DNA from: Spartinivicinus poritis
Lineage (GTDB): Bacteria; Pseudomonadota; Gammaproteobacteria; Pseudomonadales; Zooshikellaceae
NCBI RefSeq assembly: GCF_028858535.1
Contig: NZ_JAPMOU010000002.1
Location: 62,001 to 126,000 of the forward strand
Direction: 5' to 3'
Length of the DNA: 64,000 nucleotides
This document shows positions 1,346-62,085 of the stretch, one piece after another; within the stretch, counting starts at the first letter, position 1, and every line of letters begins with the position of its first letter. The notes beneath the pieces are model-generated. The model was not told the DNA's origin, did no database searches, and saw nothing but the letters and a program-made list of their open reading frames with translations. The translations under genes and the position numbers were made by a program.

Positions 1346-1750
1346 ATGATTAATAAATTTATAAAACACTTGTTATGTTTAACCTTTCTCTTGGCTGGGC
1401 CTACAGGATTTTCAGCAGCAGAAAATCACATAGGCGTCAGTAACATGCATACGACAAGTAAATGGATAACTAACTTAGCTGCTTTTAATGATAAGGCCTG
1501 TAAAGTCACATCCGAATATAAAATAAAGCTTCACTATATTCATGATCAATCTGTTCATACTTCTCTGGATCATAGTGTAACCGAAGGTGCTAGCGGAGAC
1601 TGCCACTGCTGCTTTGGGAACTGTTCTTCACTAGCTAATTCCTCCAGTAATCACTTGCTATTAACACTACCCACTATTCATTATCCTGCTATAAAACTAG
1701 CTGGGTTAAAGCTATTTATTGATCCTCATTTTCGCCCTCCTATAGTCTAA
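1346..1750 (+). CDS. Small secreted protein with a Cys/His cluster
   Basis: Unrecognised small protein of about 134 residues. An N-terminal signal peptide is clear: MINKFIKHLL, then a hydrophobic core (CLTFLLAGPTG) and a likely cleavage after FSA. The mature part carries a compact metal-ligand-like cluster, DCHCCFGNC, followed by a less polar stretch and a C-terminal FRPPIV. This layout (signal peptide, clustered His/Cys, terminal RPP) resembles short periplasmic proteins of the DUF2946/CopL kind linked to copper. The resemblance is structural and I cannot prove homology. A GTG at 1325 would add seven residues. I chose the ATG because the signal peptide then starts normally, although its Shine-Dalgarno is weak. 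The gene stands alone: the next gene starts 223 bases later with its own ribosome site. Confidence 0.55.
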   Translation: MINKFIKHLLCLTFLLAGPTGFSAAENHIGVSNMHTTSKWITNLAAFNDKACKVTSEYKIKLHYIHDQSVHTSLDHSVTEGASGDCHCCFGNCSSLANSSSNHLLLTLPTIHYPAIKLAGLKLFIDPHFRPPIV

Positions 1751-1973: not shown

Positions 1974-2984
1974 ATGAGCCTTATAGAACAAAAAATGAAA
2001 GTGGTTGACTGTAATGCGTTTAATAGCCTCTTATTTCAAGATTGTAATGAAGGGCTTTTTATATATCGTATTAGTGGTTTGTTTAATGGTGAAATTCATG
2101 AAGTGACAGGTGTTTTGAGCCAGTATAGAAATAAAGGAAAGTCAACCATTTATCCTCATGAAGAGATTGATCATCAGCGGCTGGTTACTCTTCGGCAAGA
2201 AATAATACAACAGCAGGGTATGAGCACTCCTTGTTACTTAGTGACAAATAGTAAGTTTTTTCCTCATTATGCATTATCAAGGTTAATACAATCAAAGCAG
2301 CCAATGGTGACTTTTAAAGATAATGCATTAACTCATTCAGTTTTTTATATTCATGAGTCTATTGATTGTTTAGAGGTCATGTTAGCAATTAATCGTATCG
2401 AACATTTTCTTATTGCTGATGGCCACCACCGTTTTACAGCCTATCAACAAATTAATAGTGGTATTGATAGCATTGTTCCACTCCCGGTATTTATTACACA
2501 TACATCTGAAGCCAAAGTAAGGAGTTTTGACTTGGTATGCCGACTCAATGAGCATTTTGATTGGCAACAACTTATTGATCATTGTAACCAGCTAGGACTG
2601 CAAGTTTGTAATGAAGCACAGGCTGGTTACTTGATCCAATATCAAAATAATAAGTTGGCACTTGCTTTTAATTCGCTGCATGATAGGGAGGGTATTAATC
2701 AATCAAGCTATAATCATAATTTTATATTAGAAAACCTCAGTAGTCTTAATGGAATAGAGGCTATTTTAAGTGAGGCATTCGCATTACAGAATGAAAGCTA
2801 TTTGTCTGATATCAGCCTAAGCTCTCATTACTTATTCATACAAACCCCTTCACCCAGTATTGATTTGATTTACCAAAGTGCCTTACAAGGCCACTTACTT
2901 CCTAAGAAGTCCACATGTTTTCTCTTCAAACCTTATGAGGGGATTATGAGTCATTTACAGCAACTTTTTAAGATGGCTTCTTAG
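1974..2984 (+). CDS. DUF1015 family protein, possible amino-acid kinase
   Basis: Product of 336 residues in the DUF1015 family. The hallmark is ADGHHRFTAY, with the DGHHR box at residues 149-153, preceded by a region like other members (VTGVLSQYRNKGKSTIYPHE). The family has no settled function. Its DGHHR box resembles that of ParB/Srx-fold free serine kinases (archaeal SerK, staphylococcal SbnI), so a kinase making O-phosphoserine is an attractive inference, strengthened because the next gene encodes an SbnA-like enzyme that uses O-phosphoserine. Usual DUF1015 proteins are near 400 residues, and the N-terminal segment here looks short. An ATG at 1932 lies in frame, but the ATG at 1974 has a good ribosome site (AAGGAA, seven bases upstream) and is preferred. 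It is the first gene of a tight operon: the next start lies about 50 bases beyond its stop. Confidence 0.75.
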   Translation: MSLIEQKMKVVDCNAFNSLLFQDCNEGLFIYRISGLFNGEIHEVTGVLSQYRNKGKSTIYPHEEIDHQRLVTLRQEIIQQQGMSTPCYLVTNSKFFPHYALSRLIQSKQPMVTFKDNALTHSVFYIHESIDCLEVMLAINRIEHFLIADGHHRFTAYQQINSGIDSIVPLPVFITHTSEAKVRSFDLVCRLNEHFDWQQLIDHCNQLGLQVCNEAQAGYLIQYQNNKLALAFNSLHDREGINQSSYNHNFILENLSSLNGIEAILSEAFALQNESYLSDISLSSHYLFIQTPSPSIDLIYQSALQGHLLPKKSTCFLFKPYEGIMSHLQQLFKMAS

Positions 2985-3035
2985 TGAGAAGCCATAGTAA
3001 TGCCATTAACCCTATTAAAAAAAGAAGGTAATTGT

Positions 3036-4145
3036 ATGCTTTTATCAAAATCACTTGCTAATGATACTCAATCATTATTATTGCCTAAGCAATATTGTGC
3101 CAATGATTTATACGATGCGATTGGTAAAGTCCCTATTGTTCGGTTAAACCAATTACACACTTTATGTGAAAAACATAAAGTGTATGTGAAGTTAGATTCT
3201 TGTAACCCTTCTGGCAGTATTAAAGATAAGAACGCAGTTTATTTAATAAAACAGGCTGAGCTACAAGGTTTATTAAAACCGGGTGGTACCATCATTGAGT
3301 CAAGTTCAGGAAATTTTGGTTTGGCTTTAGCAAGTATTGGTGCCTCAAAAGGTTATAAAGTCATTATTGTTATTGATGCAAAAACACCACCACCTGTTGT
3401 TAAAATGCTCCGTGCTTATGGCGCTGAGTTAGTTGAGGTACCATTAACACTAGCGGATAGTGCAGGATCAATGCAAAAAGCTAGAATGGCCCATGCACAT
3501 AAGCTTGCTAAAGAAATAGTTAATTCCTTTTATCCTTGTCAACATTTAAATCCAGATAACCCTGCAGCTCATCAGGAATATACTGCCAAGGAAATTGCTG
3601 AAGCTTTTTCAACACCTCCTGATGCTGTTGTGGTTGGAGTGAGTACTGCAGGTCAATTAGCTGGTATTGCCCGCTATTTTAGAGATTACTCGCCAAGTAC
3701 TAAAATTATTTGTGTTGATGTGGCTGGGTCTGCTGTACTAGGCATGCCGCGGCATGCATATAAAATGATTGGTTTAGGGTTATCCTTTGTACCACCCGTA
3801 TTTGAAAGACGTTATTTAGATTACGGATATAATGTGACAGATCAAATCGCATTTTCGATGTGTCATCAGCTGGCCTCTAAAGAAGGCTTATTACTAGGGG
3901 CATCAACTGGTGCGATTGTGAGTGCAGGACTTGCTTATTTACAAGCTCAGTCACGGGCAGTAACGATCGTTTTAATTAATCCCGACCGGGGAGATCGTTA
4001 TTTAGATACTGTTTATGATGTTAAGTGGTTAGAGCAGCATGATCTTGCTTTGTTAAATCGTTGTGAGTTAATGCAAGCAATCAATAACATGCAACCTGTG
4101 GTATTTCCAGAGAAAACCAAAGGAATTGTCAGTGAAAAGCTTTAA
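3036..4145 (+). CDS. SbnA-like PLP-dependent beta-replacement enzyme
   Basis: Fold-type II pyridoxal-phosphate enzyme of 369 residues in the cysteine synthase/SbnA group. The PLP lysine is K63 in GSIKDK. The phosphate- and substrate-binding loop is SSSGNFG near residue 89, and the glycine-rich cofactor loop is GVSTAGQLAG near 201. The C-terminal NPDRGDRYLD box is characteristic of SbnA as I recall it, as is the segment around CVDVAGSAVLG. SbnA joins O-phosphoserine and glutamate to make N-(1-amino-1-carboxyethyl)glutamate, the precursor of 2,3-diaminopropionate. By family resemblance this enzyme probably uses O-phosphoserine or a similar activated serine with an amine or other nucleophile. 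The partner dehydrogenase SbnB is not in the window. The start at 3036 is favoured over 3000 by the AAGAAGG site seven bases upstream. The gene overlaps its downstream neighbour by 14 bases. Confidence 0.85.
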   Translation: MLLSKSLANDTQSLLLPKQYCANDLYDAIGKVPIVRLNQLHTLCEKHKVYVKLDSCNPSGSIKDKNAVYLIKQAELQGLLKPGGTIIESSSGNFGLALASIGASKGYKVIIVIDAKTPPPVVKMLRAYGAELVEVPLTLADSAGSMQKARMAHAHKLAKEIVNSFYPCQHLNPDNPAAHQEYTAKEIAEAFSTPPDAVVVGVSTAGQLAGIARYFRDYSPSTKIICVDVAGSAVLGMPRHAYKMIGLGLSFVPPVFERRYLDYGYNVTDQIAFSMCHQLASKEGLLLGASTGAIVSAGLAYLQAQSRAVTIVLINPDRGDRYLDTVYDVKWLEQHDLALLNRCELMQAINNMQPVVFPEKTKGIVSEKL

Positions 4146-5436
4146 ACAGAAATACTTTCCACTCCTTAAACAGTTTTTGCCTATGTCAGCCAGTGATATG
4201 GTAATGGCATTAGGGGATCCAATAATTGTTTTTGTGTTGGCAAGCTTACCAAATGGCACATTATATTTAGCCGCGTTTGCTTTGGGTAAAGGTGTTGCTG
4301 TCTTTTTTGAAAGTCCAATTATTTCTATTTTACCTACTTCAAACGCTATGGCAGGTCAAGCTAAAACACGACAGTTATTATTGCGCTTTGTACTGTTGCT
4401 AGGTAGTGGGTTAACAGCTGCTATGTTACTAACGGGAAGTTTGATCAATATACCGGCGTTATTTCAAATTAATCAATCAGTTTGGGAGGCTGCTTTATTA
4501 CTTATTTTGTTACTTTGTCCCTGGCCATTAGCTATTGCATTGCGCCGGTTTTGGCAAGGACAGATTATTCGCGCTGGATTTTCTGGGCTTATTGCTAAAG
4601 GCTCATTGTTACGTTGTTTATTGTTAGCTGCTACCGCTTTTATTATGGCGGCAGTGACGGATCGTGGTGAGTGGATAGCAGCGGGAGCATTACTGACAGG
4701 TGTTTTTGGTGAGTTATTATTTATTCGATATCAGGCTATTAAAATCGCTTTGGTTGAAGAGACGCCTAAAAGCTCGTTACCTATCAATTTAAGTGAGATG
4801 GGGCATTATTATTGGCCACTAGCACAATCCATGCTTTCATTATGGGGCGCACGCTTATTGTTACCTTTTTTCATTGCCACAACCGGTGAATTATTTATTG
4901 CTGTGTGGGCGGCAGGCTGGGCATTGGTGATCAGTGTGAGTAATGGGGTAAGGATGGTTCAACAGCTAGTGATTCGTAATATTAATCATATAGCACGAGA
5001 ATCGTTGTGTTATTTTTCCCTTGGAGTAGGGGGCGCATTTAGTTTTATACTGTTTTGTATGGCTGTAACGCCCTGGGGGAAAGCTTTTTGTCGTTATTAT
5101 GGAGGCTCTCAGCTGCTAGGAGATAATATAAGTAACGTCATATTAGCGGCTTGTTTATTACCATTGCTGATGTCATTGCAAAACTATTTACAGGGATTAT
5201 TAATGGTTAAATCCTTAACGAAGGAGATAGGGCGTTCAGCTCTGATAGCAAATGGCCTGATGGTACTGGGTGCCTTATTATTCACTCAACAAGGTTATCC
5301 TCCTTATTGGATAGCATTGATAGTGAGTATGGCTACGACGGTGGAAGTGTGTTTATTAGCCTTCTATTTAAAAAGCAATGAGCAGAGTCAGTCTGGCAAG
5401 CGATTTTTTACACATAAGTCAATCAACCCTTCGTGA
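4132..5436 (+). CDS. Multi-pass membrane exporter, MATE/MOP-like
   Basis: Very hydrophobic protein of about 434 residues with roughly twelve membrane helices and a short basic N-terminus (MKSFKQKYF). The repeat-like organisation and a segment reading FWQGQIIRAG recall the MOP superfamily (MATE exporters, Wzx flippases) and the ANKH-like branch, though I cannot assign a subfamily. The likely start is GTG at 4132, which has AAGGA seven bases before it and lies 14 bases inside the end of the SbnA-like gene (GTGAAAAGCTTTAA), a sign of translational coupling. Co-translation with a PLP biosynthetic enzyme suggests that it exports the product of the two upstream enzymes. That role is inferred from position alone. 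A TTG two codons upstream is an alternative start. Confidence 0.7.
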   Translation: MKSFKQKYFPLLKQFLPMSASDMVMALGDPIIVFVLASLPNGTLYLAAFALGKGVAVFFESPIISILPTSNAMAGQAKTRQLLLRFVLLLGSGLTAAMLLTGSLINIPALFQINQSVWEAALLLILLLCPWPLAIALRRFWQGQIIRAGFSGLIAKGSLLRCLLLAATAFIMAAVTDRGEWIAAGALLTGVFGELLFIRYQAIKIALVEETPKSSLPINLSEMGHYYWPLAQSMLSLWGARLLLPFFIATTGELFIAVWAAGWALVISVSNGVRMVQQLVIRNINHIARESLCYFSLGVGGAFSFILFCMAVTPWGKAFCRYYGGSQLLGDNISNVILAACLLPLLMSLQNYLQGLLMVKSLTKEIGRSALIANGLMVLGALLFTQQGYPPYWIALIVSMATTVEVCLLAFYLKSNEQSQSGKRFFTHKSINPS

Positions 5437-5463
5437 TTTAGAGGTATCTAATCATGCTTATAT

Positions 5464-5750
5464 TTAATAAACTTTTTTAATGCTTAACTCTGAAGCCACG
5501 GCATCTAGTCGTTTAGACCGTTGCTGTAGTTTACAGGTAGGCACTGCAGGAAACAGGTGATGTTCTACATGATCAAACATATTCTACGTTAGAATAGCGT
5601 TAACCTGGTTACGAATGGTTCGTGCGACCAAACCCTGTTCTTCGCAGTGGTGATGAACAGTCCAGACCGCGAAAAAGGAAGTTAAGCACTGGGCTGTTAA
5701 CATTGCCTGTATATGGTGTTTCACATCAATATCCCTGCTACCTGCGTTCA
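5464..5750 (-). pseudogene. Remnant of a fatty-acid desaturase, C-terminal part
   Basis: On the minus strand a frame reads LINMNAGSRDIDV, then TVHHHCEEQGL, then ARTIRNQV, a stop codon (TAG at 5584-5586), and continues NMFDHVEHHLFPAVPT before ending at TAA 5464-5466. HVEHHLFP is the third histidine box of membrane fatty-acid desaturases, and the preceding RTIRN and following PAVPT segments also fit that family. The first two histidine boxes and all N-terminal helices are missing, and the in-frame stop falls just before the box, so this is a relic. It sits in the spacer after the exporter gene and is antisense to the direction of its neighbours. Confidence 0.75.
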
Positions 5751-5855
5751 TGTTGATCAGTTTGGTATCTTGTAATTATAAGTAACCTCAAATCACCTAC
5801 ACTGTCATTACAGTAGTCACAAGAAAAAATAGCATCATCCTCAAGTGATACCAGT

Positions 5856-61245: not shown

Positions 61246-62085
61246 TTACCTGTTTGGCCATGCTTTTAGTTTGACACTGCCTTTAAATAGCAGGTTTACA
61301 TTCCCCATCAGCTCTATATCGGGTACAACAAGGGCTCCATTTGAGAAATACAACTGTATTGCTCGACTGCTTCCACTTTCTTGGATAACTGGCTGAGATT
61401 TAAGGCTTATATTCTGGATTTGGAAATAACTTGCTCTTTCCTTCGCTTCACACCAACGATGGCCTTGAGGTAATCCGGTATCAGCACACCATTGGTCAAT
61501 ACTTTGTTTTACACAATTGTTTTTAATTATTGTTGGCTGTATTTGGTTATCCGAGAAACGGTAACGTACCAAAATTTGTCGTTGCTTTGAGCCAGAGTAA
61601 AGACTGTAGTGACGGCCAAACTGGTTCATACCAACCTCGATAAGTTGCTCTAATATATTGTCGACATTAGTCTTAATTGGAAACTCTAGTTCCATACGCT
61701 GCATGACATGGAACAGTTTATCCTTTTCATTACAGTTTGGTTGCTTACACTTCCGTTGCTCAACTGAGCGTAAGCGTTCAAGAGGAAGATATTTACCTTT
61801 TTGTTTTTCTACCATAACCTGCACATCATTAATAATCGTGTCTAGTTGCTTGCTTGCATCAACAATATTAAAGCTATGAGTACTTATACCGCCGACAATC
61901 AAAGCTTTATCAGGGTTTAAATTTACTTTACAGGTGCCATGTATATAAAGCTTATGGCTAGGATAGATATATTCGATAGGACTACGGCTGACACTACTTA
62001 CCAAGTCGCGAGCCATACTGGTTTGTCCCAAGTGTAAGCTGGCAAGCAGTGATAATAAAATGAGCTGAACAGGCATCTTATTCAT
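61246..62085 (-). CDS. Secreted SIMPL-domain-like protein
   Basis: Protein of 279 residues. Signal peptide LILLSLLASLHLGQTSMA. The mature part has HGTCKVNLNPDKALIVGGIS, then a helix around DASKQLDTIINDVQVMVEKQ and a later strand set, which matches the general order of SIMPL (DUF541) domains, a widespread envelope family of unclear function. It departs from the family by several cysteines (RKCKQPNC; NNCVKQ; QWCADTG; RWCEAKE) that could form disulfides, and by a C-terminal strand-rich segment (VPDIELMGNVNLLFKGSVKL). Ribosome site weak; an ATG three codons in is possible. No operon partner. Confidence 0.6.
   Translation of the reverse strand: MNKMPVQLILLSLLASLHLGQTSMARDLVSSVSRSPIEYIYPSHKLYIHGTCKVNLNPDKALIVGGISTHSFNIVDASKQLDTIINDVQVMVEKQKGKYLPLERLRSVEQRKCKQPNCNEKDKLFHVMQRMELEFPIKTNVDNILEQLIEVGMNQFGRHYSLYSGSKQRQILVRYRFSDNQIQPTIIKNNCVKQSIDQWCADTGLPQGHRWCEAKERASYFQIQNISLKSQPVIQESGSSRAIQLYFSNGALVVPDIELMGNVNLLFKGSVKLKAWPNR

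Follow-up and report, generated by a model that had tools for sequence, protein, structure and literature searches.

In SbnA, an enzyme of staphyloferrin B biosynthesis, three residues (Arg132, Tyr152 and Ser185) select the substrate O-phosphoserine (PMC12414870). That archaeal SerK phosphorylates free serine is established (PMC5120207), and a survey of the ParB fold placed both SerK and SbnI in that fold and had a 'DU1015' fusion among its selected proteins (PMC12704722). On the export side, human ANKH, the progressive ankylosis protein, exports citrate and ATP (PMC7371198). Here we analyse a module of genes in Spartinivicinus poritis that encodes a DUF1015 protein, an SbnA-like pyridoxal 5'-phosphate (PLP) enzyme and a candidate membrane exporter. 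It lies in a 64,000-nucleotide stretch, referred to below as the window, which covers positions 62,001 to 126,000 of contig NZ_JAPMOU010000002.1 in a genome of 6.8 Mb. The conserved core of the module is the pair of PLP enzyme and exporter, and the genomic surroundings of its relatives point towards metal resistance or chelation in preference to supply of a siderophore precursor.

A conserved pair of PLP enzyme and candidate exporter genes

The three genes are intact open reading frames (ORFs), all on the plus strand and closely spaced: the DUF1015 protein at positions 1974 to 2984, the PLP enzyme at 3036 to 4145 and the multi-spanning membrane protein at 4132 to 5436. Homologues favour the ATG at 1974 over the one at 1932 as the DUF1015 start, and they back the start of the PLP enzyme at 3036. 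The membrane protein ORF has a possible GTG start at 4132 and the stop of the PLP gene ends at 4145, which confirms the tight packing and the 14-base overlap described in an earlier sequence-only reading of this DNA. That reading had also proposed a three-gene operon. The grouping of the three genes stands, and three further genomes of the family (Zooshikellaceae) keep their order, which is more than chance would give; the description needs amending in that a fourth conserved gene lies directly upstream, at positions 1346 to 1750, and that the core is the PLP enzyme and exporter pair. The set of four genes also occurs in another genome of the same genus and in Zooshikella, where its chromosomal location is different and it follows genes named by eye as xseA-like and guaB/guaA-like. 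The set therefore moves, or is retained, as a unit.

The extent of the core was seen in a plasmid collection, where the exporter was found in 12 records with the PLP gene adjoining in all 12. The distinct plasmids having the adjacent pair are one from Vibrio and eight from cyanobacteria. The two proteins of the Vibrio europaeus plasmid are 63% and 49% identical to the PLP enzyme and exporter of the window, respectively, and those of the cyanobacterial plasmids (Oscillatoria, Leptolyngbya, Tolypothrix/Microchaete, Anabaena, Nostoc and Scytonema) are 56-60% and 31-37% identical. DUF1015 gave no match in the plasmid collection or in viral contigs, nor did the DUF1015 model match anywhere on the nine plasmids carrying the pair, and a plasmid search for the product of the upstream gene was also negative. 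We rejected the view that the three genes form one indivisible unit. DUF1015 partners the pair optionally and is, like the upstream gene, specific to certain lineages.

The membrane protein of the window, taken alone, has no Pfam or NCBIfam match, including to PF07260 (ANKH). Four of the ten members of its family do match PF07260, with a best E value of 2e-11, and distant relatives in other genomes match ANKH as well. Through these family members, the candidate exporter is assigned by sequence to the ANKH superfamily. When a profile of the exporter was run over two samples of some 700 genomes, drawn from the class and from the phylum, the window genome alone gave a match; the family is therefore rare and patchy, and it is rare in Proteobacteria. 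A search of PDB sequences with exporter profiles gave no match, and the predicted structure was poor (predicted local distance difference test, pLDDT, of 40) and unfit for structure search.

Classification of the PLP enzyme

The PLP enzyme matches PF00291 with 229 bits. Its resemblance to SbnA, reported earlier, holds insofar as the SbnA model TIGR03945 is its best family model, at 300 bits, and SbnA is the closest solved structure. The resemblance stops short of identity, as this score is below the curated cut-off of 350 and the enzyme belongs to a separate clade, with histidine in place of Tyr152; genuine SbnA was rejected. Cysteine synthase models score 232-236 bits, below the SbnA score, and the values against CysK and CysM (232 and 178 bits) are well under the cut-offs of 351 and 394.

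A maximum-likelihood tree places the enzyme in a 13-member clade with support of 100/100 and a private Gln-His motif, made up of enzymes from Zooshikellaceae, Vibrio europaeus, the cyanobacterial plasmids and one further genome, G539. The TIGR03945 scores of these relatives are 269-307 bits. The clade is apart from SbnA proper and also from CysK and CysM of the window genome, so that the grouping with ordinary cysteine synthases that would have refuted the sequence-only reading is not seen; branching deeper than the clade is without resolution. With this separation and the scores below the CysK and CysM cut-offs, an ordinary cysteine synthase was also rejected. At the three SbnA positions, Arg132 is kept in 13 of 13 clade members and Ser185 in 12 of 13, and an invariant histidine occupies the Tyr152 position, whereas CysK of the window genome has R/F/G there. 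By sequence, the PLP enzyme is assigned to a sister clade that is neither SbnA nor CysK. The G539 enzyme (L052 7824-8918; 2.0 Mb genome) is a solitary member of the Gln-His clade, without the exporter and with glycine in place of the selecting serine.

In the stretches examined around the clade loci, no SbnB-like ORF was found at any locus. SbnA genes scoring above the cut-off, in genomes G421, G465 and G942, have SbnB adjoining in all three cases. The only gene of the ornithine cyclodeaminase (OCD) family in the window genome is PRK06823-like and lies on another contig. The absence of SbnB beside the module, which had been claimed from the window alone, thus extends to its homologues; an SbnB in every homologous operon was part of what that claim's author had named as a refutation.

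Genomic context of the pair

On the cyanobacterial plasmids the pair lies for the most part inside islands of genes for heavy-metal resistance. Six plasmids from Nostocales have an RppAB-type two-component system in divergent orientation to the PLP enzyme and exporter genes, and the surroundings of various Nostocales copies include metal P-type ATPases, DUF305, cation efflux genes, and a gene annotated for nickel resistance or phytochelatin synthase. The divergent neighbour in Oscillatoria is a MerR-type heavy-metal regulator, and of the 23 flanking genes there, 12 were counted by hand as metal-related from their product names. Two control stretches taken from that plasmid gave 0 of 74, and one from the Nostoc C052 plasmid gave 0 of 51. 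In Leptolyngbya a metal gene island starts about 8 kb downstream of the pair.

A further arrangement was found in genome G460 (L053 620-5093), in which an SbnA-like gene (331 bits) without SbnB overlaps a gene for an exporter of the CntE family, the staphylopine-type metallophore exporters (248 bits, where the cut-off is 235); a gene for a TonB receptor of the siderophore type comes next. The G460 enzyme keeps the arginine and the serine, has cysteine at the tyrosine position and falls outside the Gln-His clade. As the contig begins just before the PLP gene, other enzymes of this possible short metallophore operon may be absent from it. The arrangement suggests that a secreted metal chelator can be fed by an SbnA-like step that has no SbnB.

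DUF1015 and a possible supply of O-phosphoserine

The DUF1015 protein scores 39 bits against PF06245, above the gathering cut-off of 25.8, and is a member of that family. Against the SerK model it scores 14.7 bits over 28 residues, where the cut-off is 380, so overall similarity to SerK is not indicated. HE, ADGHHR and C-terminal KST motifs are common to the window protein, to canonical DUF1015 and to the DUF1015 protein of an SbnA-SbnB operon in G421. In that operon (L075 4621-7618) the genes for SbnA (392 bits) and SbnB (371 bits) are directly followed by DUF1015 (120 bits). DUF1015 sits here where an SbnI-like serine kinase would be expected, which is the best evidence that DUF1015 may supply O-phosphoserine; by analogy, the arrangement supports such a role in the window, and it gives independent backing to the earlier suggestion of a putative kinase, which we narrow to a candidate serine kinase. 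Downstream of this operon, genes resembling an FMN-dependent alpha-hydroxy-acid dehydrogenase, an aminotransferase and a second PLP enzyme were named by eye. The predicted structure of the DUF1015 protein was poor (pLDDT 50) and unfit for structure search.

Genome G035, from the same genus, has at the same site kept the small upstream gene and DUF1015 (75% identity) and exchanged the other two genes. The replacements (L030 5290-7168) are another SbnA-like PLP enzyme, 37% identical and with Arg, Tyr and Ser intact, and a membrane protein with a Gate domain (PF07670). One candidate kinase combined with two interchangeable pairs of synthase and membrane protein is what we would expect of a pathway with a shared precursor.

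Other genes at the locus

The fourth gene of the set (positions 1346 to 1750, plus strand) encodes a conserved Cys/His-rich protein of 134 amino acids with a hydrophobic N-terminus, and is present as a single copy directly before DUF1015 in all five genomes of the family (5/5). The protein scores 21.4 bits (E 3e-4) against the CopL family NF033807, its homologues have no match to that family, and it may be a metal-binding partner of the module. Promoter and terminator scans of the locus performed no better than shuffled sequences.

About 7-19 kb upstream of the module and outside the window is a cluster resembling those for catechol siderophores (L035 11406-17000 and L002 256-6174), with EntC/E/B-like genes, an Fe ABC transporter, a TonB receptor and an EntA-like dehydrogenase, all named by eye. 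The earlier statement that no siderophore uptake gene stands beside the module is partly an effect of the window's edge. The Zooshikella module has no such cluster within about 7 kb.

On the minus strand, positions 5460 to 5772 of the window hold the remnant of a fatty-acid-desaturase-like gene, with a HVEHHLFPAVPTCKL motif read by eye, an in-frame stop and no intact ORF.

Proposed pathway and alternatives

We tentatively propose, with confidence a little short of even, that the module activates serine to O-phosphoserine, which the PLP enzyme joins to an amino acid, and that the aminopolycarboxylate so formed is exported by the ANKH-like protein and binds metal outside the inner membrane, for protection more probably than for uptake. 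DUF1015 would phosphorylate free serine to O-phospho-L-serine, which elsewhere could come from SerC. By the precedent of SbnA, the PLP enzyme would eliminate phosphate to form an aminoacrylate intermediate and then add an amine, for which an acidic amino acid (glutamate or aspartate, for example) is the most likely candidate; the result would be an N-(2-amino-2-carboxyethyl) amino acid similar to N-(1-amino-1-carboxyl-2-ethyl)-glutamic acid (ACEGA). As there is no SbnB to split off diaminopropionate, this ACEGA-like aminopolycarboxylate would not be broken down further and would be the end product. The ANKH-like transporter would then export it, and the exported compound would bind a transition metal; protection against metal excess is favoured over iron uptake from the context of the relatives. 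The idea of a small synthase-plus-exporter pathway, put forward in the sequence-only reading, fits these results and the conservation of the gene set, with its likely purpose shifted by the relatives to metal chelation. A broader form of the proposal, which we consider possible but doubtful, is that of a mobile two-gene metal-resistance module shared across phyla, in which the ACEGA-like chelator made by the SbnB-less enzyme would be secreted through an ANKH-type exporter and some lineages would have added DUF1015 as a dedicated serine kinase.

Several observations weigh against a metal-protective chelator. Within 15 kb of the Vibrio copy there are no metal genes, and no metal-resistance island is found beside the module in the window or in Zooshikella. 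Since the Nostocales copies form a single block of closely related sequences, only about three independent cyanobacterial contexts remain. The upstream search found no metal box and no shared regulatory palindrome, and the metal link of the small Cys/His-rich protein is under the CopL cut-off of 40. As to the chemistry, the likeness of DUF1015 to SerK is marginal and limited to about 27 residues around the DGHHR segment (E 0.013 and 0.72), and the change from Tyr152 to histidine could alter the substrate of the PLP enzyme.

The PLP enzyme shares its fold with the cysteine synthases, whose models it matches at 232-236 bits, and the plasmid copies are annotated as cysteine synthase. Both points would suit a repurposed cysteine synthase, with the pair making and exporting cysteine or another thiol as a metal ligand or a redox-stress buffer, and a thiol ligand would also be at home in metal islands. 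We consider this unlikely, since the enzyme falls outside its own genome's CysK and CysM in a fully supported clade, keeps the SbnA-type arginine and serine, has a Gln-His motif and an SSGNFG loop unlike CysK, and has no adjacent sulfur genes. Improbable too is an uptake metallophore, secreted to capture a scarce metal and retaken through a receptor encoded elsewhere. The SbnB-less enzyme of G460 with its CntE-type exporter and TonB receptor is a possible model for such a system, and a ferrichrome-type receptor lies about 5 kb from the Leptolyngbya pair; however, no clade locus has an adjacent receptor, the regulators of the cyanobacterial copies are of RppAB or MerR type with efflux systems as neighbours, and the G460 enzyme is outside the clade, on a contig that starts just before its gene.

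A product with a role unrelated to metals, namely a beta-amino alanine with bioactivity as an antimetabolite, a signal or an allelochemical, would account for the Vibrio copy outside metal islands. SbnA-like chemistry can yield many beta-substituted alanines, and such non-protein amino acids are known from cyanobacteria, where beta-N-methylamino-L-alanine (BMAA) has been discussed with SbnA cited (PMC9414260). The metal context of the cyanobacterial copies and the export of polycarboxylates, not neutral amino acids, by ANKH relatives make this quite unlikely. Very improbable, finally, is that the catechol siderophore cluster draws ACEGA or diaminopropionate as a building block from the module, and we rejected a dependence on that cluster. 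Proximity on the same contig is in favour of the idea; against it, unrelated genes lie between the two, the Zooshikella module is elsewhere, the genome lacks SbnB and has its sole OCD-family gene (PRK06823-like) on another contig, and exporting a precursor would be wasteful.

Comparison with known systems

A literature search, with most subscription journals outside its scope, found no paper on the PLP enzyme and exporter pair and no described system with these parts, in agreement with the earlier reading, whose author knew of none; two papers only in the literature covered name DUF1015. If the proposed pathway is true, DUF1015, a family without assigned function, gains a testable enzymatic role, the SbnA reaction can serve as an end point of its own, and the bacterial relatives of the human ANKH transporter acquire a substrate hypothesis. 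A secreted-chelator route that pathway searches based on SbnB or nonribosomal peptide synthetases miss would also be added to bacterial metal resistance.

The module is like the SbnA/SbnB/SbnI arm of staphyloferrin B in Staphylococcus aureus in having an SbnA-related PLP enzyme with Arg132 and Ser185 kept and, in the same operon, a putative ParB/SerK-like kinase for serine. It differs from that arm in lacking SbnB and the NIS (nonribosomal-peptide-synthetase-independent siderophore) synthetases, in the histidine for Tyr152 and the separate PLP clade, in having DUF1015 and not SbnI as kinase candidate, and in an exporter from another family. DUF1015 shares with archaeal, ADP-dependent SerK the DGHHR motif, and DUF1015 also occurs in an SbnA-SbnB operon, although the similarity is confined to the short segment noted above. 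ANKH shares its superfamily with four of the ten exporter family members, while the window protein itself has no significant match. In CntE-dependent export of the staphylopine type, as in G460, where an SbnA-like enzyme is encoded beside the exporter, a few genes in one operon both synthesise a small amino-acid chelator and export it, as we propose for the module, whose exporter is ANKH-like and not of the major facilitator superfamily, and which has neither a nicotianamine-synthase-like or opine dehydrogenase gene nor an adjoining receptor. The ethylenediamine-disuccinate (EDDS) zincophore of Amycolatopsis is, as proposed for the product here, a secreted aminopolycarboxylate built from serine-derived and acidic amino acid units, and its synthesis is under the control of metal; the module differs in that no Zur box is seen in the window.

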